Source: an uncultured Sandaracinus sp.
GTDB taxonomy: Bacteria; Myxococcota_A; Polyangia; Polyangiales; JADJQN01
Assembly (NCBI GenBank): GCA_903896985.1
Contig: CAIUAC010000251.1
Location: 1-38,153 of the forward strand
Direction: 5' to 3'
DNA: 38,153 nt
Shown: positions 2,748 through 27,019 of the stretch, in pieces
Numbering within the stretch: the stretch's first letter is position 1
Layout of the letters: each line of letters starts with the position of its first letter
The notes under the pieces: model-generated
Told to the model about the DNA's origin: nothing
The model's database searches: none
Seen by the model: only the letters and a program-made list of their open reading frames with translations
Translations under genes and position numbers: made by a program

Positions 2748-2762
2748 GGCGTGTCTCCTCGC

Positions 2763-7011: not shown

Positions 7012-8552
7012 GGCTGCCTCACGATCGCGCTCGCGAAGTCGCGCAGGTACTCGATGGTCGCTGGGTCGATCAGATCGAGCAGCAATCTAGGCCAGACGCC
7101 GAACACCACGATGGCGACCGCCAACACGATGGGCGCGGCCCACTCGACGCCGCGCGCATCGTAGAGGTCGTGGAAGTGCTCGCTCGGGCCGGGGCCCCAG
7201 AAGATCGCGCGGCTCGCGCGCAGCACGTAGATCGCGGTGACGAAGGCGCCGAGGATCGCGGGGATGGTCCACCAGGCGTGCGAGCCGTGCCACGCGCCGA
7301 GGAAGACCATCAGCTCAGCGGCGAAGCCCGCCGTGCCCGGCAGGCCGAGCGACGACAGCATCGCGAGCGTGAAGAACGTCGCGACGCCCGGCATGATCGT
7401 GCCGAAGCCGCCCATCTTCGCGATGATGCGGGTGTGCGCGCGCTCGTAGACGAGCCCGACGAGCGAGAACAAGAGCGCCGTCATCACGCCGTGCGCGAAC
7501 ATCTGGAAGATCGCGCCGTTCCAGCCGGTCGCGTTGAGCGTCGCGGCGCCGAGCATGACGACGCCCATATGACTGACCGACGAGTACGCGACGATGTACT
7601 TGAGGTCCTTCTGGCTCATCGCGCACATCGCGCCGTAGAGGATGTTGACGACCGCGACCGCGCCGACGGTCGGCGCCCAGTACGCGGCGCCCACGGGCAG
7701 CAGCATCATGCCGATGCGGATCACGCCGAACGCGCCCAGCTTCATCAGCACGCCGGCGTGCAGCATCGACACCGCCGTCGGCGCAGCGGCGTGCCCGTCG
7801 GGCGACCAAGTGTGGAAGGGGAACACGCCGCCGAGCGAGCCAAAGCCCATCCACAGCAGCGGGAAGACGATGATCTGCGTCGTGCGCGCGTAGGGCACCG
7901 CGCCGAGCACGCCGAGGTTGAACGTCGTCGCGCCGGCCCCCTGATAGAGCACGAAGATGCTGACGAGGATCGCGGCTGAGCCGAGCAGCAGCATCACCGT
8001 CAGCTTCATCGCGGCGTACTCGCGCCCACCGACGTCGAAGATCTTCCACACGAAGCGGAAAGGCCCCGCCTCCGGGACGACGTTGCTCGAGCCCCAGATG
8101 CCGATGAGCAGGTACATCGGCAGAACGGCGATCTCGTAGAACAAGAAGAAGATCAGCAGATCCTGGCAGACGAAGACGCCGAAGACGCCCGACACCAGGA
8201 CCAGCAGGTAGATGAAGAACTCTTTGTCGCGACGCTGAACGGTGAAGCTCGCGAGCACCGCGGCGAAGATGATCACGCCGGTCAGCAGCACGAGCGAGAC
8301 ACCCCAGCCATCGATCGCCAGGCTCAGATGGACTCCGAGCGAGGGGATCAGCGGCAAGTCGAAGGGCATCTGCAGCCCGCCCACGTGCCGATCGTAATGC
8401 ACGGCGGCGAGCACCGAACCTGCGAAGGACACCGTCGCGCCCGCCATGGAGACGACGCGCGTCGCGATCGCATACCGCGAAGGGATCGCGAGGAGGATGA
8501 GCGCCGCCACTGCGGGCGCGGCGACGATGACCGGGAGAAGCGCAGCGATCAC
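7008..8552 (-). CDS. nuoM: NADH-quinone oxidoreductase subunit M (antiporter-like membrane subunit)
   Basis: 514 residues, about 14 membrane segments. The TM5 glutamate is in FFLFYEIAVLPMYLLIGIWG, and the FHTWSPDGHAAAPTAVSMLHAG segment is the usual signature of NuoM. The reading frame continues upstream into nuoL in another frame's shadow, so the start must be chosen: the GTG at 8552 overlaps the nuoL stop as GTGA and begins directly before the first hydrophobic segment (IAALLPVIVAAPAVAALILL). The gene ends by overlapping nuoN. It forms part of the proton-pumping membrane arm. Confidence 0.94.
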   Translation of the reverse strand: MIAALLPVIVAAPAVAALILLAIPSRYAIATRVVSMAGATVSFAGSVLAAVHYDRHVGGLQMPFDLPLIPSLGVHLSLAIDGWGVSLVLLTGVIIFAAVLASFTVQRRDKEFFIYLLVLVSGVFGVFVCQDLLIFFLFYEIAVLPMYLLIGIWGSSNVVPEAGPFRFVWKIFDVGGREYAAMKLTVMLLLGSAAILVSIFVLYQGAGATTFNLGVLGAVPYARTTQIIVFPLLWMGFGSLGGVFPFHTWSPDGHAAAPTAVSMLHAGVLMKLGAFGVIRIGMMLLPVGAAYWAPTVGAVAVVNILYGAMCAMSQKDLKYIVAYSSVSHMGVVMLGAATLNATGWNGAIFQMFAHGVMTALLFSLVGLVYERAHTRIIAKMGGFGTIMPGVATFFTLAMLSSLGLPGTAGFAAELMVFLGAWHGSHAWWTIPAILGAFVTAIYVLRASRAIFWGPGPSEHFHDLYDARGVEWAAPIVLAVAIVVFGVWPRLLLDLIDPATIEYLRDFASAIVRQP

Positions 8553-10384
8553 GGTAGCAACCCCCAAGCCGCCAGGGCGATTGCGCCCAGCACGACGGCG
8601 AAGACGTAGTCCTGGGCGTTGCCGGTCTGCACCCTGCGGAGCGCGCGCCCACCCGCGACGGCGGACCAGCCGAGGAAGTTCATGAGCCCATCGATCAGGT
8701 AGCGGTCGATCCAGCCGAGCACATCGGCGACGACCAGGAGCACGCGGCGATAGCCGACCTCGTACACGCGATTGACTGCGCGCGTCGCGACGAGGCGCTC
8801 GAGCGGCGCGAGCGCGCTGACGACCAGCGTCCCGCGGCCGTACACCACCCACGCGAGCGCGAAGCCCCCCAACCCGAGCGACGCGGCGAGGATCGGCACG
8901 ACGCCGACGAGATGCAGCTCATAGGTCGCGCCCGAGAGGTGCGCGAGCGGCGCGGCGACCCAACCGAGCGCGACCGACGGCACGGTGAGCACGAGCAGCG
9001 GCACGAGCAGCGAGCCGCCCGACTCGTGCGCATGCCCCGCGTGACCGCGCGCCTCCCCGAAGAACGCGAGGAACACCACGCGGCCCATGTAGAAGGCGGT
9101 GAGGAACGCCGTCGCCATCAGCGCGCCGAATGGCACCCAGCCGTACCGGCCTTCGACCGATGCGAGCACCAGGTCCTTGCTGAAGAAGCCCGCGAGGCCA
9201 GGGATACCTGCGAGCGACATCGCGCCGATGATGAAGGTGGTCGCGGTCACCGGCATGCGTCGGCGCAAGCCGCCCATGTCGGCGAGCTCGTTCGAGTGCA
9301 CCGCGTGGATGACGCTGCCAGCCGCGAGGAAGAGCAGCGCCTTGAAGAACGCGTGCGTCGCGAGGTGGAAGAACCCGCCGAACACCGAGCCCGCGCCGAG
9401 CGCCGCGACCATGTAGCCGAGCTGCGAGCAGGTCGAGTACGCGAGCACCTTCTTGATGTCGGTCTGCACGAGCGCGAGGCACGCAGCGAAGAGCGCCGTC
9501 CCGGAGCCCACCAGCAGCATCACGTCGCGCGTCGCGGGGGCGTGCGCGAACAGCGGGTTGGCGCGAACGATGAGGAACACGCCCGCCGCCACCATCGTCG
9601 CGGCATGGAGCAGCGCCGAGACGGGCGTCGGCCCCTCCATCGCGTCCGGCAGCCAGATGTGGAGCGGGAACTGCGCGGACTTTCCGACGACGGCGAAGAA
9701 GAGGAGCCCGCTGACCGTCGTCGCGGTCGCCGCAGTCACGGCGGCGTCCCAGCGGAACGTGCCGGTCGTCTTGTAGAGGACCATCAGCGCCATGAGGAAG
9801 CCCATGTCCGCGAGCTTCGTGATCCAGAACGCCTTCAGCGCGGCCTGCCCGGCGCTGGGCTTCTGATAGTAGAAGCCGATCAGCAGATAGCTCGTCGCGC
9901 CGACCAGCTCCCAGCCCGCGAACAGCTGGAGCAAGTCCGGAGCGAGCACGAGCAAGTTCATGCTGAACAGGAAGAGCGCGTGATACGCAAAGTAGCGCCC
10001 GAACGCGGGCGGCTTCTCGTCGTGCATGTAGCCGAGGGAGAAGACCTGCACGCAGGTCGCGACCACGCAGACGACCAACAGCATGGTCGCCGAGACGCCG
10101 TCGAGACGCACCCCGAAGTCGCCGACGCCGGCGCCGTTGATCTGCAGCCACGAGGCCATCCAAACATGGCTGCCGCCCTCACGGAGTTGGGTGACGAGGA
10201 GGGTGACCGCCGCGGCCGTCGCGAGGAGTGACGCCGTGAGCGTCACCCACGACGCGGGCGCGCCACGCCTGCGGAGCGCCGGCGCTGCGGCGAGCACGAG
10301 CGCAGCGACGGCGGGAGCGAAGAGCGCGACGAACGCCGGAATGGGCGCGGCTTCGAGCGGAAGCGCACCGACGGGGAGACTCAT
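8549..10384 (-). CDS. nuoL: NADH-quinone oxidoreductase subunit L (distal antiporter-like subunit)
   Basis: 611 residues. The TM5 glutamate is in LFAGWELVGATSYLLIGFYY; HIWLPDAMEGPTPVSALLHA and the LAYSTCSQLGYM region are characteristic of NuoL. The C-terminal part contains the long lateral (piston) helix region and ends with a final membrane segment (DYVFAVVLGAIALAAWGLLP). ATG at 10384 overlaps the nuoK stop (ATGA), and the stop overlaps the nuoM GTG start. Distal proton-pumping subunit of complex I. Length is normal for the family. Confidence 0.95.
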   Translation of the reverse strand: MSLPVGALPLEAAPIPAFVALFAPAVAALVLAAAPALRRRGAPASWVTLTASLLATAAAVTLLVTQLREGGSHVWMASWLQINGAGVGDFGVRLDGVSATMLLVVCVVATCVQVFSLGYMHDEKPPAFGRYFAYHALFLFSMNLLVLAPDLLQLFAGWELVGATSYLLIGFYYQKPSAGQAALKAFWITKLADMGFLMALMVLYKTTGTFRWDAAVTAATATTVSGLLFFAVVGKSAQFPLHIWLPDAMEGPTPVSALLHAATMVAAGVFLIVRANPLFAHAPATRDVMLLVGSGTALFAACLALVQTDIKKVLAYSTCSQLGYMVAALGAGSVFGGFFHLATHAFFKALLFLAAGSVIHAVHSNELADMGGLRRRMPVTATTFIIGAMSLAGIPGLAGFFSKDLVLASVEGRYGWVPFGALMATAFLTAFYMGRVVFLAFFGEARGHAGHAHESGGSLLVPLLVLTVPSVALGWVAAPLAHLSGATYELHLVGVVPILAASLGLGGFALAWVVYGRGTLVVSALAPLERLVATRAVNRVYEVGYRRVLLVVADVLGWIDRYLIDGLMNFLGWSAVAGGRALRRVQTGNAQDYVFAVVLGAIALAAWGLLP

Positions 10385-10680
10385 CCTCGAAGCTCCTTCG
10401 CAGCATCCGTACGAGTGTCGCCGTAGGTTCGATAGAGAAGCAGCACCAGCGCCAAGCCGACGGCGACCTCAGCCACCGTGATCGCGAGGGCGAAGAGCGC
10501 GAACAGTTGCCCGGTCGCGCCTCCGCGGAAGTGCGAGAAGGCGACGAAGCTGAGGTTGGCGGCGTTGGCCATCAGCTCCACGGACAGCAGGATCGCGACC
10601 GCATGGCGGCGCGTCAGCAGGCCATAGACGCCCACGGAGAACATCGCCGCAGCGAGCAGGATGGAGGTCGACAGCGTCAC
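10381..10680 (-). CDS. nuoK: NADH-quinone oxidoreductase subunit K
   Basis: 99 residues with three membrane helices. The two buried glutamates important for proton transfer are present at E35 (SVELMANAANL) and E71 (ITVAEVAVGLALVL), matching E36 and E72 of the E. coli protein. Start and stop overlap nuoJ and nuoL as ATGA. The last dozen residues are polar and probably cytoplasmic. Confidence 0.95.
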   Translation of the reverse strand: MTLSTSILLAAAMFSVGVYGLLTRRHAVAILLSVELMANAANLSFVAFSHFRGGATGQLFALFALAITVAEVAVGLALVLLLYRTYGDTRTDAAKELRG

Positions 10681-11249
10681 GAGGACGCCTCCGTTCTGGC
10701 GTTCTGGTCGAGCGCGCCATGGTCGCGGCGCCGCGCGATGACGACGGCGCCGATGATCGCTGCGAGCAGCAGCAGGGAGAGCACTTCAAACGCGAGCACG
10801 TGGGTGGAGAGAAGCTCGAAGCCGATCGCCTGCGTGGTCGCTTGGCTGCTGGCGGCGAGCGCCTCGACCGCGGGAGGACCTGCCGTCGGAGCCACCGGCG
10901 CGTGCTCCAGGTCGCTGCGCATGACGGCTGCCGCGATGACGCCGAACAGCACGGCTGCGGTCAGCGCGCCGCGCCACGGGGACCCGCTGGCTGCCGGCAC
11001 CGAGAGGCCGTCGTGCCGCCGCGTCAACATCACGCCGAAGACCATCAGCGTGACGACGCCGCCGACGTACAACAGCACCTGCACGCCGGCGAGAAACGAC
11101 GCGCCGAGCATGCCGTAGAGCACCGCAGTGTCGATGAGCGTGACGCCGAGCCAGAGGACGGCGTGCACGAGGTTCGGAGAGCGGACGACCAGGATCGCGG
11201 AGAGCAGCGCAATGGCGGCTACCACGCCGAACCCGATGGCGACGGTCAC
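10677..11249 (-). CDS. nuoJ: NADH-quinone oxidoreductase subunit J
   Basis: 190 residues with five predicted membrane segments. NPNLVHAVLW-like (here SPNLVHAVLWLGVTL) and VLLYVGGVVTLMVFGVMLT segments are the family signatures; the latter holds the pi-bulge helix. A periplasmic-side Pro/Ala-rich loop of about 30 residues precedes the last helix. The frame is open well upstream, but the GTG at 11249 (overlapping the nuoI stop as GTGA) gives the normal N-terminus TVAIGFGVVAAIALLSAI. The gene overlaps nuoK at its end. Confidence 0.93.
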   Translation of the reverse strand: MTVAIGFGVVAAIALLSAILVVRSPNLVHAVLWLGVTLIDTAVLYGMLGASFLAGVQVLLYVGGVVTLMVFGVMLTRRHDGLSVPAASGSPWRGALTAAVLFGVIAAAVMRSDLEHAPVAPTAGPPAVEALAASSQATTQAIGFELLSTHVLAFEVLSLLLLAAIIGAVVIARRRDHGALDQNARTEASS

Positions 11250-11980
11250 TTGGACTCCTCTTTCGTGGCCGGCGCCGGAGCCGCGGGCGCGACGGCGGAG
11301 GTCTCTGCGACGGGCGGCGCAGCCAGCGCAGCCGCGACGACGGGCGCGCTCGCGGGCTCGGCCGCAGCCACCGGAGCCACGACGACGGGCGCGCTCGTGG
11401 GCTCGGCTGCGGCTAGCGCGGCAGCAGGCGCAGCCTCGGCCGCTGCGGGCGCCGCGGCCGCGACAGGCTTCGCGGGCTTCGGCTTCTTCTCTTCCTTGGG
11501 AGCCTCTTGCATCCCCATGAGGCGCGTGCCGGTACCCCACGAGGCGGGCTTGTCCTTCTCGTGCGCGTAGAGCTTGTCCATCGTGAGGACGAGCTCTTCG
11601 CGCGAGTACGCGGGGATATCCGCCACCTGCGTCATGATCAGCGCGTCCGTGGGACACACCTGCACGCAAAGCTCGCAGGAGATGCACGCGGTCGTGTCGA
11701 GCACGAAGTCCGAGGCCCAGCCGCGCTTCTTGCCGGTGACCTTCGACTCCGCCTTCGGCCCCTGAGTGACGGTGATGACGGTCGAAGGGCAGATGCGCTC
11801 GCACTGCAGACAACCGATGCAGAGCTCCTCGCCGTGCTCGTCGTGGAGCAGCGCGAAGCTCGTGCGGTAGCGCTCCGGGCGCTTACGGATCTCGGTCGGG
11901 AACTGCACCGTCACGGGCGTGCGCAGCACTTGCCGCATCGTGGTGAAGAGCGCGCGTGACGCGTCGATCAGGTGCCGCAT
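11246..11980 (-). CDS. nuoI: NADH-quinone oxidoreductase subunit I with a long Ala/Pro-rich C-terminal tail
   Basis: 244 residues. Two [4Fe-4S] ferredoxin motifs are intact: C54-x2-C57-x2-C60-x3-C64 and C99-x2-C102-x2-C105-x3-C109 (clusters N6a and N6b). The ATG at 11980 shares one base with the nuoH stop (TGATG). Typical NuoI proteins end near residue 150-180; this one continues with a lysine-rich stretch (EEKKPKPAKP) and about 80 residues of Ala, Pro, Val and Glu. That tail contains a 15-residue unit present twice (AAAEPTSAPVVVAPV, then AAAEPASAPVVAAAL), encoded by a 45-bp imperfect direct repeat. The tail resembles flexible linkers of lipoyl-type enzymes. In this operon without NuoEFG it may sit where the NADH module would dock; this is inference. 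Confidence 0.93.
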   Translation of the reverse strand: MRHLIDASRALFTTMRQVLRTPVTVQFPTEIRKRPERYRTSFALLHDEHGEELCIGCLQCERICPSTVITVTQGPKAESKVTGKKRGWASDFVLDTTACISCELCVQVCPTDALIMTQVADIPAYSREELVLTMDKLYAHEKDKPASWGTGTRLMGMQEAPKEEKKPKPAKPVAAAAPAAAEAAPAAALAAAEPTSAPVVVAPVAAAEPASAPVVAAALAAPPVAETSAVAPAAPAPATKEESK

Positions 11981-12957
11981 CAGAGGAACTCCGGGAAGAG
12001 CTGAACCCAAAGCGCCGCGGCGAGCACCAGCAGCACGGACGCCGGGACGAGGTAGCGCCAGCACATCGTCAAGAGTTGGTCAGAGCGGAACCGCACGAGC
12101 GACCAGCGGATCCAATACACCGACACGAAGAGCACCAGCGTCTTCGCGACCATCCAGTGCAAGCCGGGGGCGAACGGGCCGTCCCAGCCGCCGAGGAACA
12201 GGGCCGCCGCGACCGCTGAGCCGACCAGCGTGTGCACGTACTCCGCCATGTAGAACAGCGTGAACTTGATGCCGGTGTATTCGGTCGTGATCCCGCCGAC
12301 GAGCTCGCTCTCGGCCTCGGGGATGTCGAACGGAATGCGGTTCGACTCGGCCAGCATCGCCATGAAGAAGATGCCGAACGCGGGGAGCCCCGGCACGATC
12401 GGCCAGAGGGCGAACATATGATGCCCGACCTGCCACCGCACGATGTCGCTCACGCTGAGCGAGCCAGCGAGGATCACCGGGACCATCGCGGCGAGCACGA
12501 GCGGGATCTCGTAGGAGATCGCCTGCGCGACGGAGCGCATCCCGCCGAGCAGCGCGAACTTGTTGTTGCTCGCCCAACCGCCGAGGAAGATCGCGATCGT
12601 GGTGAGCGCGCCGAGGCCGAGGATGTAGAGCACGCCGACGTCGAGGTCCGACGCGATCACGTCCGGGCTGAACGGGATGACCGCGGCGACTCCGAGCGCG
12701 CAGAACGCGGCCAGCACCGGCGCGAGGTTGAACAGCGCCCGGTCCGCCTGCGCCGGGATGATGTCTTCCTTCTGCAGGAGCTTGAGCACATCCGCGACCG
12801 CTTGCAGCAGCCCGAAAGGCCCAACGATCGTCGGCCCAAGGCGAGTCTGCAGACGCGCGGCGAACTTGCGTTCACCCCAGATCCACAGCCCCGAGGTGGT
12901 GAGCACGACGGCGAGGATGAGCACGCCGTAGACCGCTCCGTGTACGAGCCCGCTCAT
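11980..12957 (-). CDS. nuoH: NADH-quinone oxidoreductase subunit H
   Basis: 325 residues, eight or nine membrane segments; the subunit that forms the quinone-entry site between the two arms of complex I. Recognisable parts are ERKFAARLQTRLGPTIVGPFGLLQAVADVLKLL-type sequence at residues 29-62 and PFDIPEAESELVGGITTEY (about 205-225), which carries the conserved acidic residues of the E-channel. ATG at 12957 overlaps the nuoD stop; the stop shares one base with nuoI. Length and motifs are normal. Confidence 0.96.
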   Translation of the reverse strand: MSGLVHGAVYGVLILAVVLTTSGLWIWGERKFAARLQTRLGPTIVGPFGLLQAVADVLKLLQKEDIIPAQADRALFNLAPVLAAFCALGVAAVIPFSPDVIASDLDVGVLYILGLGALTTIAIFLGGWASNNKFALLGGMRSVAQAISYEIPLVLAAMVPVILAGSLSVSDIVRWQVGHHMFALWPIVPGLPAFGIFFMAMLAESNRIPFDIPEAESELVGGITTEYTGIKFTLFYMAEYVHTLVGSAVAAALFLGGWDGPFAPGLHWMVAKTLVLFVSVYWIRWSLVRFRSDQLLTMCWRYLVPASVLLVLAAALWVQLFPEFL

Positions 12958-14156
12958 CGGTCGACCTCCCCCATGATCGGGTCCAGCGAGCCGAGGATCG
13001 TCACCGCATCGCTCAGCGTCGCGCCTGGGAGCAGATACGGCAGCGCCGACAGCGAGTGCAGGCTCGGAGGCCGGAACTTCAGGCGGTAGGGGCTCGCATT
13101 TCCCTCGCCCCCGCCCGCGATGACGAACGTCCCGAGCTCACCGCGCGGCGTCTCGATCGCCGCGTACGCCTGGCCCGAGGCGATCTTCACCTGCCCGACG
13201 AGCTTGATGGGCCGGTAGCTGCAAATGGGGCCTTCAGGCAGCCCCTCGAGCAGCACCTCCACGAGGCGGATGCTCTCGCGCACCTCTCGCACGCGGACGA
13301 GCACCCGCGCGAGGCTGTCGCCACCCTGCTCGACGATGACGTTCACCGGCACTTCGTCGTACGCGTGGAACGGCGCGTCGCGGCGCAGATCGTGGTCGAC
13401 ACCGCAAGCGCGCAGGTTCGGACCCGTGACCCCGAGCTCGAGCGCGAGCCGACCATCGAGCACCCCGACGCCGCGCGTGCGCTCGATGAAGATGCTGTTG
13501 TCGATGCTCATCGAGTCATACTCGGGGAGCCGCGCGAGGATCGTCTTCATCGCGGACCGCACATGCGCCGCCCACTCAGGCGTCACGTCGTGGCGATTGC
13601 CGCCGATCGTGTGCGTGTTGTAGTGGAAGCGCGCGCCGGTGACCTCTTCGAAGAGGTCCATGATGAGCTCGCGCTCGCGGAAGCAGTGGATGAAGAGCGT
13701 CGAGCCGCCGCCGAGGGCACCGCCGAGATCGATCGAGAGCGTGCCGAGCGCGAGCAGGTGCGACGCGATGCGCTGCAACTCCGCGAAGAGCGAACGCAGC
13801 CAGCGCGCCCGCCGCGGGACCTCGACCCCGAGGAGCTTCTCGAAGGCGACGTTGAGCGCCTGCTCGCTCGTCATCGGAGCGACGTAGTCGTGCTTGTCGA
13901 CGATGGGCGTCTGCTGCACGTACGTGAGCCGCTCCATCAGCTTCTCGACGCCGCGGTGCAGATAGCCCGCGAAGGGCACCGCCTTCACGATGACCTCACC
14001 GTCGAGGTAGAGGTCGATGCGGAAGACGCCGTGGGTCGAGGGATGCTGCGGCCCGAGATGCAGCAGCATCAGCTCGCCCTCCGCCTCGAACGCGGCCATG
14101 TCGAGGTGCGGGTTGGGCCACTTGAGCGTGTGAGTGGGAGTCTGCATCGAGGTCAT
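12954..14156 (-). CDS. nuoD: NADH-quinone oxidoreductase subunit D (49-kDa subunit)
   Basis: 400 residues, the quinone-site subunit of the peripheral arm, related to the large subunit of [NiFe] hydrogenases. It contains [15 protein letters not shown] (about residues 26-40, with the quinone-site His), KHDYVAPM, and ends in the canonical IMGEVDR. The usual RIGG loop reads [10 protein letters not shown], a variant. The start at 14156 gives an N-terminus of normal length and overlaps the nuoC-domain stop as ATGA; the frame upstream is open but is a shadow of nuoBC. The gene is separate from nuoC, unlike the CD fusion of enterobacteria. Confidence 0.95.
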
Positions 14157-15394
14157 CGCCAAGGGGCCCGGTGGGTATCCGCGGCGTAATCTTTGCGCAA
14201 CGGATGACCTTCCCAGTCGTCGGGCATCATGATCCTGCGCAAGTCGGGGTGACCCGAGAACTTCACGCCCAGGAGATCCCACTGCTCGCGCTCCTGCCAG
14301 TCGGCTCCCGCGAACACCTCGGTCAGCGTCGGCAGGCTCTGACCGGGCTCGAGCCGCACACTCCACGACGCGAGCTGCGAGGCTCGCCCCACGGTGCGCA
14401 GCGCGAACGCCACCTCGAAGTGCTCCGTCTCGCTCGCATCGGCACCCGCACGACCGCGCCCGGCGAGCCAGTGGCTCGCGGCGATGTAGACGAGCTGCTT
14501 GTAGCCGCGCTCTTGAAGCGCGCGGGCGAGCGCCACGTGCCGGTCTGCGGAGATCAGCGGAGGCGCGTCCTTCGGAAAGGCCAGCGCGCCGTGCGCGGCA
14601 AAGAGGGACTCGAGCCAGCTCGCGGGCGGCGTCGTGCCCTCCAATGCCGGAGCCGGGCTGAGCGCCTCGCTCGCGGCTGAGCTCCCCGTCGCCTCCGGAC
14701 GCTCCACCGCGCTGTCCGCGGTCTTCATCGCGTCAGCCGTCTGCTGCTCGTTCGTCTCCGCTTCACGCTCTGGGTCGTTCAAGCGCGGAATCGACGGCTT
14801 GGTGCTCGCGAGCAGCGCCGGTCGCGGCTCGGGAGTCGCGAACTGACCGAGGCGCTGGAGGCGCACCTTCTCCTGCAGGCGGAGCAGGCCGTGCATCAAC
14901 GCTTCGGGGTTCGGCGGGCAGCCCGGGATGTAGACATCGACCGGCAGGAACGTGTCGATACCCGGCACCACTGGGTACAGGTCCCGATAGAAGTCGCCCG
15001 AGATCGCGCAAGAGCCCATCGCGATCGCCCACTTCGGCTCGGGCATCTGATCCCAGAGCTTCTTCACGCGGGGCGCCATCTTCACGGTGATCGTGCCCGC
15101 GACGACCATGACGTCAGCCTGACGCGGCGTCGCCCGGACGATCGTGCCCATGCGATCGAGGTCCACACGGCTCGCCGCCGCGGCCATCAGCTCGATGCCG
15201 CAGCAGCTCGTCGCCATCGGGAAGACCCACAGCGAATTCCGCAGCCCCCAGGTGAGCAGCGCGTCGAGCGAGGTGACCCCGAGCGAGAGCCCGGGCACGC
15301 TGAGCAGCTGCTTGTAGAGGGGGTGCTCGTACGTGCGCTCGCGCTCGTCGCCCGGGCCGACGACCGGCAGGGAGATCTTGCCGTCTATTGCCAC
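14153..15394 (-). CDS. nuoBC: Fused NADH-quinone oxidoreductase subunits B and C
   Basis: 413 residues in one uninterrupted frame. Residues 1-185 are NuoB with all four ligands of cluster N2: C64-C65 (SCCGIEL), C129 (GSCAISG) and C159 (PGCPPNPEA). A polar linker rich in Glu, Thr, Ser and Ala covers about 190-255. Residues 255-413 are NuoC (30-kDa subunit) with its signature in [19 protein letters not shown] and the end segment GHPLRKDY. Subunits B and C are normally separate genes, so this is a real fusion unless the linker hides a frameshift; I see no internal stop. I chose the GTG at 15394 as start: it lies behind GAAAGGG, overlaps the nuoA end by 10 bases, and gives a normal NuoB N-terminus. 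Confidence 0.92.
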
Positions 15395-15744
15395 TTCAGC
15401 GCGCCCTTTCGCATCCCGTAGAGCCAGCCGATCATGAGCACCAGCACGAAGGCGACGACCTCGATGAGCGTCGAGGTGCCGAGCGAGCGGATGACCGTGC
15501 TCCACGGAAACAGGAAGACTGCCTCCACGTCGAACAGCACGAAGAAGAGCGCCACGAGGTAGTAGCGCGCGTGGAACTGCATCCACGCCATGCCCTCCGG
15601 CTCCTCACCGCACTCGTAGGGGCGATGCTTGAGCGGCGACTCGACTCGTGCGCGCACCCGCAGGATGCGCCCGGCGATGAGGAGGCTCATCACGATCCCG
15701 AACGTGACGCCGAGGAAGCTGAGCGCCGCGATGCCCTGATTCAT
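15385..15744 (-). CDS. nuoA: NADH-quinone oxidoreductase subunit A, first gene of the nuo-kor operon
   Basis: 119 residues, three membrane helices. The conserved loop YECGEEPEG (Cys45) near the quinone site and the helix with [11 protein letters not shown] are intact. The ATG at 15744 is chosen because it sits directly before the first hydrophobic segment; upstream codons in frame are not NuoA-like. The ribosome site is weak (GCAGG next to the start). It begins an operon of 13 genes on the minus strand running to 2217; the promoter should lie in the 393-base region to its right. Confidence 0.94.
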
Positions 15745-15946
15745 CCTGCACACCCGCTCTGCGCCACGCGGCTGGCTACGCACGACGGAACCACCGGGTT
15801 GCCGTCGAGGAGCTTGGAGCGCGCGGTCATTCGAGGTCCCGCCAACTAGCACGTTTTGTTCCCGGAGGCGACAACGAAAGCACATTCCCGGGCGCGCGAA
15901 AATACCTTCTCATTTCAAGCATTTGCCGAGTCGCCCCGTTCGAGAA

Positions 15947-16137: not shown

Positions 16138-17322
16138 TCATTCCGCGGCTGCGGGACTCGGCTGATAGATGCAGAGCGGATCGCTCGCCATCGCGTTGCC
16201 CGTCGCGGCATAGGCGCGCGCGCGTGAGCCACCGCAGATCCAGCGGAACTCACACTCGCCGCACCGACCGTGCAGCTCGTCCATGTTGCGAAGCGCGACC
16301 GCGCCCTCGGAGTGCCGGTAGATCTCCGGCAGGGGCTTCTCGCGCACGTTGCCGAGCAACGGATACGGCAGAAAGCCAGCCGGGTAGACCTCGCCGCGAT
16401 GGCTGACGAAGACGATCCCGGAGCCGTCGCGGATGCCGAAGCCCATCATCCGACCACGCTGCTCGATCTCCTCGAGCTTGACGCCCTCCGACAGCTTCTT
16501 CTGCATCCAGAAGCGCCGGTAGTGGGGCGCCTCGACGGTGCTCATGTGGAAGGGCACCTTCTGCGAGTTCTCGTAGACCCAGCCGAAGAGGCCCTCGATC
16601 TCTTGCGCAGTCGGGCTCCCGAGCATCAGCCCACGGCCGACGGGGATGAGCACGAAGAGGCTCCAGCGACGAACAGGCGGCGCCTGCGTCAGCAGTAGCT
16701 CGAGCATCTGCGGGAGCTGCTTGATCGTGTCGCTCGTGACCGTGCTGTTGATCTGCACGGGCATACCCGCATCGCGCGCCCAGCCGAGCGCTCGGAGCGA
16801 CATCTCGAACGTCCCCGGCACTTGCCGGAAGCCGTCGTGCCGCTCGGCAGTCGCCCCGTCGAGGCTCATGCCCATCGTCGCGACGCCCGCCTCCTTGAGC
16901 TTCTTGACGATCTCCTCCGTGAGGAGCGGCGTCACCGCCGGCGTGATCGCGATCGGGAGGTGAATCGAGCGCCCGTAGGCGATCAGCTCGAAGAGATCGG
17001 GGCGCTTCAAGGGATCGCCGCCCGTGAGGATGAGGTGGCTCCCCATCGCCTTCACGTCGCGCATCAGCGCCATGCCCTCTTCCGTCGAGAGTTCGAGCTT
17101 GTCGCGGTCACCGATGGCGTCTGCGCGGCAGTGTCGGCACGAGAGGTCGCACGCGACCGTCATCTCCCAGTAGACATTGACCGGCGCATTGCCGTAAGTG
17201 AACGCGGGGAAGTATGCGGGATGGGTCACGACCGGGGATAGCGCGCGCACGAACGATGAGCCCGCAAAAAATGCAGCCAAGAACACGCAGCCAGAGAGTC
17301 GCGGGCCACGAAGTCGGCACAT
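16138..17322 (-). CDS. Radical SAM/SPASM protein related to the heme-synthesis enzymes AhbD and NirJ
   Basis: The radical SAM cluster motif CDLSCRHC (C58, C62, C65 from this start) follows VNVYWEMT, and the C-terminus carries an auxiliary-cluster domain, CGECEFRWICGGSRARAY plus a final DPLCIY. That C-terminal pattern is typical of AhbD (iron-coproporphyrin to heme b) and NirJ (heme d1) and of close uncharacterised relatives. The start is uncertain. The ATG at 17322 has an excellent ribosome site (AAGGGGGGG, 9 bases upstream) and gives 394 residues, but adds a hydrophobic stretch (GCVFLAAFFAGSSFVRA). GTG codons at 17250 or 17229 would give the usual N-terminal length. It is divergent from the multiheme cytochrome genes, which suggests, but does not prove, a role in heme supply or modification. 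Confidence 0.82.
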   Translation of the reverse strand: MCRLRGPRLSGCVFLAAFFAGSSFVRALSPVVTHPAYFPAFTYGNAPVNVYWEMTVACDLSCRHCRADAIGDRDKLELSTEEGMALMRDVKAMGSHLILTGGDPLKRPDLFELIAYGRSIHLPIAITPAVTPLLTEEIVKKLKEAGVATMGMSLDGATAERHDGFRQVPGTFEMSLRALGWARDAGMPVQINSTVTSDTIKQLPQMLELLLTQAPPVRRWSLFVLIPVGRGLMLGSPTAQEIEGLFGWVYENSQKVPFHMSTVEAPHYRRFWMQKKLSEGVKLEEIEQRGRMMGFGIRDGSGIVFVSHRGEVYPAGFLPYPLLGNVREKPLPEIYRHSEGAVALRNMDELHGRCGECEFRWICGGSRARAYAATGNAMASDPLCIYQPSPAAAE

Positions 17323-17528
17323 TGTTCGGGTCCCCCCTTGCGGGCAGCCGCGCGGTGCACAGTTGGCACCCCATGGTGGTGCGGCTCGTCGACCCGACCC
17401 GTTCCCGCGACGATGAAAGCACCCTTCGCAGCCCGCATGACGCGCGACCGCACTCGCGGAGCGTATCCCCTCGCGCAGCGACCGCTTCACGCCTGCGGTG
17501 CTGTCTCGCGATTCGCGGAGGGAGCGGC

Positions 17529-19103
17529 GTGAGCGGCGTTCGTGTCGCGGCGCTCGTTCTCGTAGGCCTGCTCGGCGGTTGCACAGTGCGGGACCTCCCC
17601 GCGCCAGTCGCGACGTACGACGAGGTGGAGCCTGTGCTCAGGGCCGCGTGCCTCGACTGCCACGGGGAGGCACGCGCCGAGGGGGGCTATCGAATTGACA
17701 GCTACCTCGCGACAGTCGCCTGCCCGACGGGGAGCACTTCGGCAGTGCTGCCAGCCGACACGACGGCGCCCATCCTCACCGTGCTCGACCACCCCGACCA
17801 CTCGGCGCTGCTGACTGCACAGGAGAAGGCGCTCATCACGGAGTGGGTCACCACCGGTGCGCAGGCCCGGCTCGGCGAGATGCACCCGCCAGGCTGGGTG
17901 AATCCGCGCAGCCCCGACTTCCACGGCACGGCGCTCGCGGCCGATGGCTTCCGCCAGATGCTCGATCCGGACGCGACCGGCGCGTGCGCGCGCTGTCATC
18001 GCGGCACCACAGGCACCGTCGATCCGGAGGCGCCCTCTGCGCCGGGGGCGAGCGACTGCACGAGTTGCCATCGCGAAGAAGGCGGCCCCACCGCCTGCTC
18101 GACGTGCCACGGCTCGGCCGGTCACGCCTACCCGCCGCGCGACCTCTGCGTCCACCCGGATGAGGCGAACAAGGCGGGCGCGCACGAGAAGCACACCGCG
18201 GCGGGCATCACCTGCGAGGTCTGCCACGGAGAGCGGCGCACGGTCGCCATGCTCGGAACGTCGGAGCACGGCAATGGGACCGTCGACGTGCACCTCGACC
18301 CGGCCCGGGCGGGCGAAGGCGCCACCTACACGCCGGGAGTGGGCGGCGAAGCGGGCACGTGCACCGCGAGCAAATGCCACACGGTGCCGGACGCGGGCGG
18401 AACGCTGCTGGCGGACCCACCTCACTGGCTGCCCGACGTCGTGCTCACCTGCGGCTCGTGCCACGGGAGCCCGCCCCCGAACCACTACTCGGGCACCTGC
18501 AACACCTGTCACCGCGAGGCGGCGGCCGATGGAATGTCCCGCATCCCCGGACCGCTGCACATGAACGGTCGCTTCGATGTGGGGGACGGCGTCCTGCTGC
18601 CGGACGGCAGTGTTCCTTGCGGCGAATGCCACGGCGCTGGTGAGGACCCGATGCCCTCGACGGGCTCCCATGTGTCGCACGTGCGGTCGAGCCTGTCGGC
18701 GCCGGTGGCGTGCACGAACTGTCACGTCATGCCCCCGATGCCGCGGGATATGACCCACCCCAGCCGCACCAGGGCCCAGGCAGAGGTCGTCCTGGGAGGC
18801 CTTGCCTCCGCGCGCGGCGCGACCCCCGTGCGCAACCCGGATGGTAGTTGCGCGGGCGTCGCGTGCCACGGAGCCGGGCTCGGCGGCGGCGTCGCCCAGA
18901 CGCCGATGTGGGGCGACCCGAGCGGGACGTTCGCACGCTGTGGTGCGTGCCACTCGGTCCCCCCCCCGCCGCCCCACACGACGGCGACCAACTGCAGCGC
19001 GATCAGCTGCCACGGTGGGTATGTCGGACCCGGCCCGAGCTTGACGACGGTGGGCGTCGCGGCTCACATCAATGGCACCGTCAACCTATGGACGGCCCCG
19101 TGA
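17529..19103 (+). CDS. Tridecaheme c-type cytochrome lipoprotein (CxxCH / CxxxxCH family), likely outer-surface cytochrome
   Basis: 524 residues. GTG start at 17529 behind a strong ribosome site (GGAGGGAG). The N-terminus is a lipoprotein signal with lipobox LGGC (C18); Thr follows the cysteine, so sorting to the outer membrane is expected. There are 13 heme-binding motifs: ten CxxCH, the first at C41, and three CxxxxCH (CTASKCH, CAGVACH, CSAISCH). The mixed motif type is that of the Geobacter OmcB-like family. The first heme lies in a segment (VEPVLRAACLDCHG) like the small cytochrome domain common in planctomycetes. The stop overlaps the next gene, a beta-barrel protein, as GTGA. Together they resemble a porin-cytochrome conduit that moves electrons across the outer membrane; the direction of flow is unknown. 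Confidence 0.9.
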   Translation: MSGVRVAALVLVGLLGGCTVRDLPAPVATYDEVEPVLRAACLDCHGEARAEGGYRIDSYLATVACPTGSTSAVLPADTTAPILTVLDHPDHSALLTAQEKALITEWVTTGAQARLGEMHPPGWVNPRSPDFHGTALAADGFRQMLDPDATGACARCHRGTTGTVDPEAPSAPGASDCTSCHREEGGPTACSTCHGSAGHAYPPRDLCVHPDEANKAGAHEKHTAAGITCEVCHGERRTVAMLGTSEHGNGTVDVHLDPARAGEGATYTPGVGGEAGTCTASKCHTVPDAGGTLLADPPHWLPDVVLTCGSCHGSPPPNHYSGTCNTCHREAAADGMSRIPGPLHMNGRFDVGDGVLLPDGSVPCGECHGAGEDPMPSTGSHVSHVRSSLSAPVACTNCHVMPPMPRDMTHPSRTRAQAEVVLGGLASARGATPVRNPDGSCAGVACHGAGLGGGVAQTPMWGDPSGTFARCGACHSVPPPPPHTTATNCSAISCHGGYVGPGPSLTTVGVAAHINGTVNLWTAP

Positions 19104-20581
19104 AGCGGCACGCGCTCACGCTCACCCTGGCGTCGATGCTACTAGCCGCGAACGCGGCGGCGGCCACTGCTCAGGATGCGACGGCCCGTGCGGTCGACGA
19201 CGGGTCCACGCCAACGGCGACCGACGCCGCTCCGACCGGAGCGGGCACGGCGACTGGCCGCGCCGACCCGGACGCCGAGAGAGACGCCCGCGCCACCGCA
19301 GCCCGCGCGGCGGCCGTTCAGGCGGCGGCTCGAGCACCGAGCAAGTGGCGCGTGCGCACCCGGCACGACACGATCATCAGCTGGGCGCCGCGCTACCGCC
19401 TCGACACCTCCACGAACCCGGTCGGACTCGAGCAGCAGCTCTGGCAGTCCGTGGACCCGCTTCCGCTCTACCACCGGGTCTCTCTGGACGCCTCGCTCGC
19501 GGTCGACGAGAAGACCGCGCTCGGGCTGCATCTGTCCGGATGGGGCAGCGTCGACCTCATCCAAGTCGCCGACGGCGGCCGCGGCGCAGGCGACATAGCG
19601 ATCGGCTACGTGGAGTTCTCCCACTCGCCCCTCGCTACCTGGGTGGGACGACGTTTCCTCGGCTATGGTCCACCGGGTGGCCTGCACGTCGACGGCGTCG
19701 GCGCGGGCGTGCGCAGTGGATTCGGGCTGTTCTTCGAGGCCTTCGTCGGACGCCCTGTGACGCCGATTCGCACCGGCTTGATGGGCCCACAGCCGAGCTT
19801 CACGGATTCGACCGTCGCGTATGGCGCCCGCGTCGGCTACGAGGACGCGGGTTCGCTCGCGGTAGGCGCGAGCTTCGCGGAGCTCTGGGGCCACGGGATC
19901 GTCGGCAAACGCACCGTGGACTTCTCGGCGAGCTGGAACCCCGGCATCCTTCAGCTCGAGGGGAGCGTGAAGGTGGACGCGCTCGACCCGGGCATCATGC
20001 AGGCCCGCGCGGTCGCGATGCTCTCCATCACGCACGACCTTCAGGTCGACGTGAATTACCTGCACATCGAGCCCGCTCGATGGATCGCCGCATGGAGCAT
20101 CTTGAGCGCCTTCGAGACCAGCACTTTCGACGAGGCGATGGCCGGCGTGACCGTGCGGCCGACCCGCACACTGGCTGTGCGGGGCGAGGGCGCTGCGCGC
20201 TTCTATACGCTGCAGTCGACCGGTGACCAGACGCTCGGGTACCGCGCGGACCTGAGCGCGCGATTGACTCCGGGCGCCGACAACGGCCCGACCTTCCGGG
20301 TCCAGGCCAGCCGCCGGGACGACGGCGTACTCGGCTATACGGTCCTCACCGCGGGTGCAGCGCTCGATGTCTGGCGGGGTACGATCGTCTCACTCGACGG
20401 CGCGTTCGCCGCGGATGATGACGGCGGGCGACTCTCAGCGATTGGGCGCGGAAGCTGCGACCTCGAGGTCGCCAAGGACTTCCGCGTCGGTGCGACGCTG
20501 TCGCTCGGCACCTCGCCGTTCGCCGAGTCGGAGCTCCGGGCGATGCTGCGGGCGCGCTGGGTGGCGGAGGTGTCCGAATGA
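19100..20581 (+). CDS. Outer-membrane beta-barrel protein, predicted porin of a porin-cytochrome conduit
   Basis: 493 residues from a GTG start that overlaps the upstream cytochrome stop. This start gives a clean signal peptide (KRHALTLTLASMLLA, cleavage likely in AAAATAQD near residue 25); an ATG 12 bases earlier is possible. Residues 25-80 are low-complexity Ala/Thr/Asp. From about 85 to the end the sequence alternates polar and hydrophobic residues with frequent Gly, Tyr and Trp, as in transmembrane beta-strands (for example TALGLHLSGWGSVDLIQV, SVKVDALDPG). I recognise no named family with certainty. Its position between two 13-heme lipoproteins, coupled on both sides by stop/start overlaps, is the basis for calling it the sheath porin. 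The C-terminus lacks the usual final aromatic residue. Confidence 0.75.
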   Translation: MKRHALTLTLASMLLAANAAAATAQDATARAVDDGSTPTATDAAPTGAGTATGRADPDAERDARATAARAAAVQAAARAPSKWRVRTRHDTIISWAPRYRLDTSTNPVGLEQQLWQSVDPLPLYHRVSLDASLAVDEKTALGLHLSGWGSVDLIQVADGGRGAGDIAIGYVEFSHSPLATWVGRRFLGYGPPGGLHVDGVGAGVRSGFGLFFEAFVGRPVTPIRTGLMGPQPSFTDSTVAYGARVGYEDAGSLAVGASFAELWGHGIVGKRTVDFSASWNPGILQLEGSVKVDALDPGIMQARAVAMLSITHDLQVDVNYLHIEPARWIAAWSILSAFETSTFDEAMAGVTVRPTRTLAVRGEGAARFYTLQSTGDQTLGYRADLSARLTPGADNGPTFRVQASRRDDGVLGYTVLTAGAALDVWRGTIVSLDGAFAADDDGGRLSAIGRGSCDLEVAKDFRVGATLSLGTSPFAESELRAMLRARWVAEVSE

Positions 20582-21639
20582 CCTGCCTACGCCTGCTGCC
20601 GCTCGTGCTCTTGACCGTTCTCCTCGGATGCGGTGGCCGTAGCGGCTCGCACGACGAGATCCGCTTCTCCCACGGGCCGCACCTCGCGAACGGCATGAAC
20701 TGCCCTCGCTGCCACGGCGCGACGGCGCGGAGCGATGGCGGCCCCGCCGCCCATCCCGGCTCGCCGACACGGCCGCTCCTACCCGCAGAAGCCGACTGCC
20801 GCGGCTGCCACAACGACCCGGTCCGCGACCGCTGCCAGCGCTGCCACACGGACCCCGACCATGCGGGACCGTACAGGCCCCGCGACCACACGGTGCGGTT
20901 CAACCATGGCGGGCATGAGAGCTTGACCAAGGGGCGCTGCGTGAGCTGCCACGGCTCCAACGCGGAGAGCATCGCCGGCTTCAAGCCCGGCCTGCCGAGC
21001 ATGGCTACGTGCACGGGCAGTTGCCACAACGACGCCATGCACGCGCTGAACTGCGCGAAGTGCCACACCGACCTGCACGACTACCGCATCGAGGAGGTCA
21101 CCGTGCTCAACCACGGGCCGGGCTTCCTTCGGCGGCACGGCACGGCGGCCTCAGCGGACCAGACGCTCTGCTCGCAGTGCCACGACCCGACGTTCTGCGA
21201 GGATTGCCATCTGTCCGCGCAGGGGATGCCGCTCGAAGTGCTGAATCCTACCCAGCCCTACCGGGACTTCGTGCACCGTGGCGACTTCTTCTCGCGCCAC
21301 GGCACCGAGGTCAATCTCGAGCGCGGCACCTGTCTTCGCTGTCACGGAACCCCCTTCTGCGACGGCTGCCACCAAACGAGCGGGGTCGGCGGCGGCGTCG
21401 GACCGCAGAGTCCTCATCCCGTGGGGTGGCTCGATCCGCTCTCGCCCATGGGGCACGCCCGCGAGGCGAGGCGCAATCTGGTCTCGTGCGTCGCCTGCCA
21501 CGAGTCGGACGCGGAGACGAAGTGTGTGCCGTGCCACCGGGTGGGCGGAGTGGCGGGCGACCCGCATCCTCCGGGTTCTGGCCTCACGATGGACGACGCA
21601 CTGCGGCACGGCGTCTGTCGCGCATGTCACGTGAACTGA
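20578..21639 (+). CDS. Tridecaheme c-type cytochrome lipoprotein, likely periplasmic partner of the conduit
   Basis: 353 residues. The start ATG overlaps the porin stop (ATGA). Lipobox LLGC ends at C18. It carries 13 heme motifs: twelve CxxCH and one rare CxxxCH (CTGSCH, around residue 145). The first heme is preceded by FSHGPHLANGMNCPRCH, the distal-His spacing of c7-type and related periplasmic cytochromes. The heme density, one per 26 residues, is high and typical of wire-like proteins. As third gene of the porin-cytochrome operon it is the natural candidate for the periplasm-facing cytochrome that feeds the barrel. Which of the two 13-heme proteins faces outward cannot be settled from sequence. 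Confidence 0.88.
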   Translation: MTCLRLLPLVLLTVLLGCGGRSGSHDEIRFSHGPHLANGMNCPRCHGATARSDGGPAAHPGSPTRPLLPAEADCRGCHNDPVRDRCQRCHTDPDHAGPYRPRDHTVRFNHGGHESLTKGRCVSCHGSNAESIAGFKPGLPSMATCTGSCHNDAMHALNCAKCHTDLHDYRIEEVTVLNHGPGFLRRHGTAASADQTLCSQCHDPTFCEDCHLSAQGMPLEVLNPTQPYRDFVHRGDFFSRHGTEVNLERGTCLRCHGTPFCDGCHQTSGVGGGVGPQSPHPVGWLDPLSPMGHAREARRNLVSCVACHESDAETKCVPCHRVGGVAGDPHPPGSGLTMDDALRHGVCRACHVN

Positions 21640-21765: not shown

Positions 21766-21822
21766 ATGACAACGCAAGGGTGGTGTATGCAGGCGCTCGC
21801 GGCGGAAGATGGGCTCTGCTGA
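21766..21822 (+). CDS. 18-residue leader ORF coupled to the octaheme cytochrome
   Basis: ATG at 21766 lies 6 bases behind a near-perfect ribosome site (GGAGGAG). The ORF encodes MTTQGWCMQALAAEDGLC and its stop shares one base with the cytochrome start (TGATG at 21820-21824). The cytochrome itself has no good ribosome site, so it probably depends on translation of this ORF. The peptide has two cysteines and one tryptophan but no run of one amino acid as in classic attenuators. Too short to assign a function; the ribosome site and overlap are what support it. Confidence 0.55.
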   Translation: MTTQGWCMQALAAEDGLC

Positions 21823-23900
21823 TGAAACACTCGCGCGTGCGATGGACGGTGCTCTCGGTCGCTGTTCTCATGACGCTCATCGGCTGCGAAGGGCCGGTCG
21901 GCCCCGAGGGCAAGCCCGGCCCCGCAGGGGAGACTCCCGATCTCGGGATGCTGCCCGATGAGGGGCCACCGCCGCCCGACGCCGGGCCGCCGGACTTGGG
22001 CCCGCCGCCCGATGGCGGCCTTCCGCCGGGCACGATCCCGCTGGAGCCTGCGGGCCTCGTCGGGCGCGTCATCGATACGGCAGGCGTCGTGCTCGCTGGC
22101 GGGCGCGTCGTGCTGGTTCCGGCGAGCGAGGTCGCGGCGCTGAGCGCCACGGTGCTCGACCAAACGCTCACGCCTGCGCTGGCGGCTGCTGCGACGAACG
22201 ACGAGCCTCTCGAGGACATCATCGACGCGGCGGGGGCCACGCTGGCCTCCGCGACCATCGACGAGGAGGGTGTCTACCGCTTCGTCACCCTGCCCGACGC
22301 GAGCGTCTTCGTGGTCGTCATGCCCGCTGCGGGGGACTTGGGCCATCTTCCAGGCGGCGAACAGTCGCGGTTCGCGCAGGCGCCGGCGTCCCTCCTCGGG
22401 CAGCGCATCGACTACACCGTCAGCACCGCGCCCGGCGCGGACGCGACCTACGTCGGTTCAGGGGCGTGCACGAACTGCCACGGTCGGCACCGCGCCTTCG
22501 GGACCGCGCACTTCGTGGGGCTCAACGTCCCGGGCCGCCGAGGCTACCTCGAGGACACCTCCCGTTGGCCCGACTTCGACGCCGCGCTGGCCCGTTTCGA
22601 GGCCGGGGTCACCCTCCACTTCTACGACTGCAACGCCGCCGCCGAGGTCCCGTGCAGCGTCTCGGAGACCGCGCCGGCACCCGCTTCGCGGATCAGCTTC
22701 GATGCGGAACTCTCGCGCAACGCGCTCGTGCCGGTCGGTGAACGGGGCGCGTATGTCGTCACCCTGCGCAACGTCCGAGGCGCTGGCGTCGCGACGTACC
22801 CGATCGATCTGACCTACGGCGGCGTGCTCGCCCGCCAGGACTTCATCGTGTCGGTCGCTCGCCCGGGCGGGATGGAACACCACGTGCTGCCGTTCCAGTT
22901 CCAGCACAACGGAGTCGCGACTGCCAGCGACACGCGCGGCTTGCCGTGGGCGGACGTCGGCTCGGCCGGCTGGTACGACTTCACCGCAGGCGCCCTGCGC
23001 GTCCCGGGGTCGTTGGCATCCTTCGACCGCGCGTGTGCGGGCTGCCACTTCACGGGCTTCCGGCTTGCGGGGGATGCGACGAACGGCTTCCGCGCTTCGG
23101 CTCTGCCGACGCTCAACGGCGCAGCCGACTACGACTCCGACGGCCGCCTGGAAGACATCAACGTGGGCTGCGAAGGCTGTCATGGCCCGGGCTCGAACCA
23201 CGTCGACGCGCGAGGCCGCGGGATCGCCATCATCTCTCCGCAGCTCCTGACGGCCGAGCGCCAGGACGTCATCTGTGGAACCTGCCACACGCGCGCGGCG
23301 GCGGGTCCGGCGCTCGACGCTGCAGGGCAGCGACCGCGCCCCGGTCTTCGGCGCGCCGAGCTTCTCGCCAACTTCACCACGAGCCCGCTGCTCACGGCCT
23401 CCGACACCTATCCTTCGGGCGACCCACGGCACGCGCAGCTCGAGTACCCGATGCACGCGAGCAGCGCGATGGCGCGCAATGGCCGCCTCCTGACGGCGTG
23501 CACCAACTGCCACGATGTCCACGGTGCGCCCACGGTGCCGCATGACCTGCGCGCGCCGACGGACACGCCGAACGTGCTCTGCACGGGCTGCCACGGCGGT
23601 GACGAATTCCGCACCGTTCGCACGCACGTCGTGTCGCTGACGCCGGCGACCCCGACTGCGCACAACGCGGTCGAGGACGCCGAGCTCGTGTGCACGACCT
23701 GCCATATGCCGCCGACCGCGTTCGGCGGAGCGGCGCAAGCAGGGCTGTTCGACAGCAGCCCTGTGCCCACGCAGTACTGGATGGGCGACCTCGCCACGCA
23801 TCGCTACAAGCCGTCTCGCCGCGCGGCGGCTGCCACGCAGCCCGCGACGGTCACCCAGACCTGCGCGTTCTGCCACGGGCGCTTCCTCCCCGCCCCGTAA
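21822..23900 (+). CDS. Octaheme c-type cytochrome lipoprotein with collagen-like linker and carboxypeptidase-regulatory-like domain
   Basis: 692 residues. The ATG at 21822 gives a lipoprotein signal ending in LIGC (C22); an ATG further upstream would spoil it. Directly after the lipidated Cys come five collagen-like triplets (GPVGPEGKPGPAGET), then a Pro/Asp/Gly linker to about residue 82. Residues about 85-185 look like a carboxypeptidase-regulatory-like beta-sandwich (GLVGRVIDTAGVVLAGGRV). Then come eight CxxCH motifs: CTNCH, CAGCH, CEGCHGPGSNH, CGTCH, CTNCHDVHG, CTGCH, CTTCH and CAFCH. The CEGCHGPGSxH form is seen in c554-type cytochromes. It follows the porin-cytochrome operon after 182 bases and is likely a surface partner. 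Redox partner and substrate are unknown. Confidence 0.85.
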   Translation: MKHSRVRWTVLSVAVLMTLIGCEGPVGPEGKPGPAGETPDLGMLPDEGPPPPDAGPPDLGPPPDGGLPPGTIPLEPAGLVGRVIDTAGVVLAGGRVVLVPASEVAALSATVLDQTLTPALAAAATNDEPLEDIIDAAGATLASATIDEEGVYRFVTLPDASVFVVVMPAAGDLGHLPGGEQSRFAQAPASLLGQRIDYTVSTAPGADATYVGSGACTNCHGRHRAFGTAHFVGLNVPGRRGYLEDTSRWPDFDAALARFEAGVTLHFYDCNAAAEVPCSVSETAPAPASRISFDAELSRNALVPVGERGAYVVTLRNVRGAGVATYPIDLTYGGVLARQDFIVSVARPGGMEHHVLPFQFQHNGVATASDTRGLPWADVGSAGWYDFTAGALRVPGSLASFDRACAGCHFTGFRLAGDATNGFRASALPTLNGAADYDSDGRLEDINVGCEGCHGPGSNHVDARGRGIAIISPQLLTAERQDVICGTCHTRAAAGPALDAAGQRPRPGLRRAELLANFTTSPLLTASDTYPSGDPRHAQLEYPMHASSAMARNGRLLTACTNCHDVHGAPTVPHDLRAPTDTPNVLCTGCHGGDEFRTVRTHVVSLTPATPTAHNAVEDAELVCTTCHMPPTAFGGAAQAGLFDSSPVPTQYWMGDLATHRYKPSRRAAAATQPATVTQTCAFCHGRFLPAP

Positions 23901-23961: not shown

Positions 23962-26928
<2,967 letters not shown>

Positions 26929-27019
26929 GCGGGCATCCGGCGGGCGAAGGGGAGACAGATGGGCGTCCAACGCCGGACGAACCAGCATAGGTTGACGACA
27001 CCATCTGGGTCAACAGCGC

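Follow-up and report, generated by a model that had tools for sequence, protein, structure and literature searches.

A putative three-gene porin-cytochrome conduit with two lipoprotein multiheme cytochromes in the Myxococcota

Results

Gene layout

The window, the whole stretch of 38,153 nucleotides analyzed here, is contig C251 of a 6.2-Mb MAG that is 86% complete. Three genes on its + strand, cyt1, barrel and cyt2, follow one another in the order cytochrome-barrel-cytochrome with a 4-base overlap at both junctions. A sequence-only reading of this DNA had proposed that GTGA and ATGA overlaps couple the three genes, and both can be read directly in the sequence. The trio and its nearest neighbors are as follows.

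16138..17490, - strand: divergent radical SAM/SPASM neighbor (TIGR04053, 422.5 bits against a cut-off of 395)
17529..19103, + strand: cyt1, 524-aa lipoprotein c-type cytochrome (motif count and domain models)
19100..19103, + strand: GTGA stop/start overlap of cyt1 and barrel (sequence)
19100..20581, + strand: barrel, predicted 493-aa outer-membrane beta-barrel with a signal peptide (AlphaFold2)
20578..20581, + strand: ATGA stop/start overlap of barrel and cyt2 (sequence)
20578..21639, + strand: cyt2, 353-aa lipoprotein c-type cytochrome (motif count, lipobox and conservation)
21822..23900, + strand: cyt3, 692-aa octaheme lipoprotein (8 CXXCH; Paired_CXXCH_1 and Cytochrome_C7 above cut-off)

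The start codon of cyt1 is GTG, with GGAGGG immediately 5' of it. The barrel start was taken as the GTG at 19100, an alternative in-frame ATG at 19088 being possible. A promoter and terminator scan gave no signal above chance.

The radical SAM/SPASM protein resembles AhbD (heme b synthase) and is transcribed away from the trio. It is possibly a heme-supply or heme-modifying partner and is not itself part of the conduit; in L070/L012 and L117/L054, a homologue is again a neighbor of the trio. Homologues of cyt3, the N-terminal stretch of which is collagen-like and Pro-Asp-rich, are found beside the trio in L009, L012, L014, L048 and L066.

Elsewhere in the window, a complex I cluster (2763-15885, - strand) encodes NuoA, a fused NuoB/C ORF and NuoD, H, I, J, K, L, M and N. 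It lacks NuoEFG, NuoF-type genes being on other contigs, and ends in a 2-oxoacid:ferredoxin oxidoreductase alpha/beta pair, which suggests that this complex I is ferredoxin-linked. Adjoining the ferredoxin oxidoreductase is a gene for a short protein (2217-2747, - strand) matching the ferritin-like N-terminal half of the iron exporter MbfA (64 bits, cut-off 450). Downstream of cyt3, a 1008-aa TPR protein (23962-26988, - strand) resembles the type IV pilus formation protein SgmX (451 bits, cut-off 1800).

Two multiheme lipoproteins and a predicted barrel

The sequence-only reading had assigned each cytochrome 13 heme motifs and a lipobox, and counting confirms it with one qualification. Cyt1 has 10 CXXCH and three CX4CH motifs and cyt2 has 12 CXXCH and one CX3CH; as the CXXCH counts are only 10 and 12, reaching 13 in each requires four atypical motifs. 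Shuffled sequences of the same composition hold on average 0.09 (cyt1) and 0.18 (cyt2) CXXCH. In an alignment with 27 relatives, the cyt2 CX3CH falls on a heme site at which both Cys and the His never vary. The lipoboxes are LLGG-C in cyt1 and VLLG-C in cyt2. Cyt1 contains Cytochrome_C7, Cytochrom_c3_2 and GSu_C4xC__C2xCH domains above cut-off, the last as PF09698 (25.8 bits, cut-off 21.7), and reaches 71.7 bits against a cut-off of 27 for the curated Geobacter-type CX4CH/CXXCH domain TIGR01904.

That the middle protein is a beta-barrel, on which the earlier reading hinged, is what AlphaFold2 predicts. Run with an alignment of 47 sequences, it gave a model (mean pLDDT 84.3, pTM 0.75) with a signal helix, a disordered linker (residues 31-78) and, by our count, 22 long beta strands over residues 83-492. 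By standard barrel geometry, 22 strands correspond to about 39-41 Å between opposite C-alpha atoms, and 26 strands, the number in MtrB, to 46-48 Å. The modeled barrel would in principle be wide enough for a multiheme rod.

Searches with the barrel, alone or as a family, found no Pfam, NCBIfam or PDB sequence match, and none in NCBIfam even at E 10. The comparison with MtrB that the earlier reading had called for was run by profile: PF11854 (MtrB_PioB) matched neither the window barrel nor 46 relatives, nor anything else in the same genome. Foldseek retrieved generic outer-membrane barrels (ushers, Occ porins) with a query TM of at most about 0.47, MtrB being absent among the 50 matches listed. 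Since only generic barrels were retrieved, the argument for the barrel rests on its strand count and context.

A model of cyt2 alone was weak (pLDDT 73, pTM 0.46), perhaps because multiheme proteins fold poorly in prediction when heme-less, and a Foldseek search with this weak model matched no solved conduit cytochrome by fold. Cyt2 also matched neither TIGR03508 (DmsE/MtrA-family decaheme) nor solved MtrA. With the barrel negative in Pfam, NCBIfam and PDB, homology to MtrAB was ruled out by sequence.

Conservation across the phylum

Of 379 genomes sampled from the phylum, 71 contained a homologue of the barrel by profile. In all 20 loci opened, cyt2 lay beside the barrel, and in 19 of them cyt1 did too. 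Species representatives, one genome per species, were then scanned with a narrower cyt2 alignment, which returned 80 loci; the two sets share genomes, so their counts are not additive. By title nearly all 80 are Myxococcota or old 'Deltaproteobacteria' MAGs, the exceptions being one from Oligoflexales and two from Anaeromyxobacter. Searching plasmids with cyt2 gave no match.

At 75 of the 80 loci, the gene immediately before cyt2 is the barrel, and 56 also have a cyt1-type cytochrome. Among the 75, the order is cyt1-barrel-cyt2 in 29 and barrel-cyt2-cyt1 in 27; 13 more are at contig ends and 6 are without a nearby cyt1. The junction between barrel and cyt2 is likewise kept, with an overlap of -4 in 43 of the 53 relatives measured and of -1 in 8, and cyt2 identities across the tree go down to about 31%. 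In the cyt2 tree, the window falls in a well-supported clade of six, apart from Anaeromyxobacter.

The two cytochromes differ in how they have been conserved. Every cyt2 homologue has 12-14 motifs (80/80) and at least 72 of the 80 have a lipobox; motif residues are invariant or nearly so, save for one site lost in 12-heme members. Eleven conserved non-motif His residues appear suited to serve as distal ligands in bis-His ligation. The cyt1 homologues beside the barrel range from 3 to 36 heme motifs, some of the low counts perhaps reflecting contig-end fragments, and 52 of 65 have a lipobox by a strict pattern. As cyt2 keeps to 12-14 hemes and nearly always has a lipobox while cyt1 varies, cyt2 is likely the conserved inner cytochrome, or through-barrel plug, and cyt1 likely the outer, acceptor-facing and heme-variable one. 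We rejected the 13 + 13 symmetry as meaningful given this range in cyt1 and its confinement to the near clade.

The record titled Oligoflexales, a Bdellovibrionota MAG (L095), has a complete cyt1-barrel-cyt2 module. In the cyt2 tree it groups closely with a Myxococcota MAG (L094); either horizontal transfer or a mislabelled bin may account for it.

Linked genes of a putative quinol module and periplasmic chain

Around the trio, close relatives encode a ferredoxin-type FeS protein, an NrfD protein, a 9-heme cytochrome and a cytochrome of 28-33 hemes whose N-terminus includes a hydrophobic stretch; some also have a b-type cytochrome nearby. The FeS and/or NrfD, 9-heme and 33-heme genes adjoin the trio in L068, L070, L071 and L073. 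The genome of the window encodes such a set on another contig, C1038 (L047).

2049-2648: 4-heme lipoprotein
2645-3619: Tat-type FeS protein (best model DsrO, 166 bits, cut-off 200)
4648-5925: 9-heme cytochrome
5591-8110 as listed, ending at 8110: 33-heme cytochrome
8154-9446: NrfD/DsrP protein (best model DsrP, 332.6 bits, cut-off 350)

Both scores are below the equivalog cut-offs, and DsrOP-like therefore denotes resemblance, not membership. The large cytochrome, with 27-34 hemes and an N-terminal hydrophobic anchor, also occurs at 3387-5666 in L010 and 6360-8582 in L011. Before it lies a 9-heme cytochrome anchored at its C-terminus. The large protein has no NCBIfam equivalog and is a candidate for a single-molecule periplasmic wire. 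These operons also encode a small conserved lipoprotein, its family unassigned, ending ...SELDVDDSVWGA... (about 3630-4275 in L047; 4686-5339 in L013).

The same genome codes for an 896-aa lipoprotein with 18 CXXCH or 23 relaxed motifs (C827, L155; 6140-8830, - strand), four GSu_C4xC__C2xCH repeats and a Gly/Asp-rich tandem-repeat N-terminus. No barrel lies near its gene on C827, and a partial copy is found on contig C1210 (L156). Heme-copper oxidases are encoded as well; the organism is therefore probably not restricted to anaerobic respiration.

Discussion

A probable conduit across the outer membrane

We consider it likely, with a probability of roughly 0.8, that the trio codes for a porin-cytochrome conduit carrying electrons across the outer membrane. 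What is observed is the gene order, the heme motifs, the lipoboxes and the co-conservation; the barrel fold is predicted. Under this scenario, the 22-strand barrel would be an insulated sheath, and cyt2, the 12-13-heme lipoprotein, would sit in or under it and pass electrons through. Cyt1 would extend the wire on the cell surface and meet the external partner. On the periplasmic side, the DsrO/DsrP-like module may oxidize quinol, the electrons of menaquinol crossing the periplasm through the 4-, 9- and 33-heme cytochromes. Flow would be outward, with metal oxides, humics or other cells as possible acceptors. Some observations count against parts of this scenario. A periplasmic plug that is freely soluble would not be expected to have a lipobox, yet both cytochromes do, and the heme-copper oxidases leave room for a main mode of respiration other than the extracellular one.

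The same conduit might instead run inward, with electrons from Fe(II), minerals, humics or a partner cell entering through cyt1 and cyt2 and passing via the periplasm to oxidases or quinones. Pio and Mto conduits can work in that direction. The genome does encode heme-copper oxidases, DsrOP/NrfD modules may be reversible, and OetABI, of like architecture, accepts electrons in sulfate reducers (PMC10553843). Nevertheless, inward flow appears unlikely: the Anaeromyxobacter relatives come from a metal-reducing genus, with Adeh_3392 rising under Mn(IV) reduction (PMC4245776), and no carbon-fixation pathway has been established in the genome.

It is considerably less probable that the barrel serves as an ordinary porin or as a secretion channel while the cytochromes, merely co-transcribed with it, are separate surface or periplasmic reductases. 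A pairing of barrel and cyt2 kept at 75 of 80 loci, across cyt2 identities down to about 31%, and a translational overlap kept at -4 in 43 of 53 relatives are hard to reconcile with that explanation, even if the Foldseek matches are only to generic barrels and ushers. About as improbable is a conduit dedicated not to mineral respiration but to detoxification, for example by reducing selenite or tellurite at the cell surface. The linked b-type cytochrome of one relative does have its best match in ExtP, from the Geobacter selenite/tellurite operon, at 116.5 bits against a cut-off of 290. However, the window contains no ext-operon marker at or above cut-off, ExtN gives a weak partial match on another contig of the genome, and the DsrOP-like module linked to the trio suggests respiration coupled to quinol.

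Beyond the conduit itself, a broader proposal can be made tentatively, at somewhat under even odds. The Myxococcota, including lineages best known as aerobic predators or social bacteria, may have their own conduit lineage, with a lipid-anchored 12-13-heme plug and a freely exchanged outer cytochrome of 3-36 motifs. A single membrane-anchored 27-34-heme cytochrome, fed by a DsrOP-like quinol module, might bridge the periplasm in place of small shuttles. Together these parts would form an entire respiratory wire that has not been described as one. The analysis provides testable genes for extracellular electron transfer in a large phylum, and what was noted in 2014 as a two-gene conduit becomes a three-gene family found throughout that phylum. 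It also tells an invariant subunit, the likely plug, apart from a swapped one, the likely outer cytochrome, and the linked 33-heme cytochrome is a candidate for a periplasmic wire made of one molecule.

Comparison with known conduits

Anaeromyxobacter is an established metal-reducing genus and, to our knowledge, the only one within the Myxococcota that is well known to breathe metals. Shi et al. 2014 (PMC4245776) described its two-gene pcc, in which a porin-like protein is paired with a cytochrome of 338-344 aa and 12-14 hemes; the cytochrome Adeh_3392 is more abundant under Mn(IV) reduction (PMC4245776). In Anaeromyxobacter soli SG29 (L138), our profiles found the barrel (130.8 bits) and cyt2 (244 bits), the latter a 348-aa, 12-heme protein with a lipobox. 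An Anaeromyxobacter MAG (L112) has a similar barrel and 12-heme pair, homologous by profile. No cyt1 homologue lies within the stretch examined around either pair. These pairs fit the reported Pcc with Adeh_3392, as judged from protein size, number of hemes and the pairing of the genes rather than from sequence. The conduit core was therefore already known. At the phylum level, it is incorrect that extracellular electron transfer is not known in the group to which this locus belongs, as the sequence-only reading had suggested. Both systems have a barrel followed by a 12-14-heme cytochrome of about 340-350 aa. The Anaeromyxobacter pair is without an outer cytochrome gene, whereas the window has cyt1, a CX4CH-containing lipoprotein whose gene overlaps that of the barrel; its cyt2 has one heme more and belongs to a separate clade.

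In Geobacter, OmbB-OmaB-OmcB likewise places a porin, an inner cytochrome and an outer lipoprotein cytochrome in one cluster. It has 8 + 12 hemes and another gene order, in contrast to 13 + 13 and two lipoboxes in the window, the likeness being one of description, not sequence. ExtABCD and ExtEFG, also compared by description and not sequence, have a 12-heme inner cytochrome, a barrel of about 18-21 strands and one or more lipoprotein cytochromes, and ExtABC shares the cytochrome-barrel-cytochrome order. ExtA and ExtG are reported to be periplasmic, whereas both window cytochromes have a lipobox. Geobacter conduits have stable inner and variable outer parts (PMC6148476), a contrast that cyt2 and cyt1 repeat. 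Shewanella MtrCAB, PioAB and MtoAB follow the same principle of a barrel sheath around a multiheme wire; the window differs in having 22 rather than 26 strands and no PF11854, MtrA/DmsE-family or PDB sequence match.

With a predicted barrel encoded beside a multiheme cytochrome and a second, lipoprotein multiheme cytochrome, the locus has the gene content of the porin-cytochrome kind. The Pcc-like logic of the sequence-only reading is supported by the barrel model, by a barrel-cyt2 linkage present at 75 of the 80 loci and by the conserved hemes and lipoboxes; its suggestion of a distinct conduit type holds only in part, the core pair being present in Anaeromyxobacter. In the open-licence literature, we found no description of the three-gene form, the lipid-anchored plug or the phylum-wide spread. 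The trio, whose function, direction and partner contacts we infer, would accordingly represent a three-gene, two-lipoprotein variant, spread across the phylum, of a conduit type already known.
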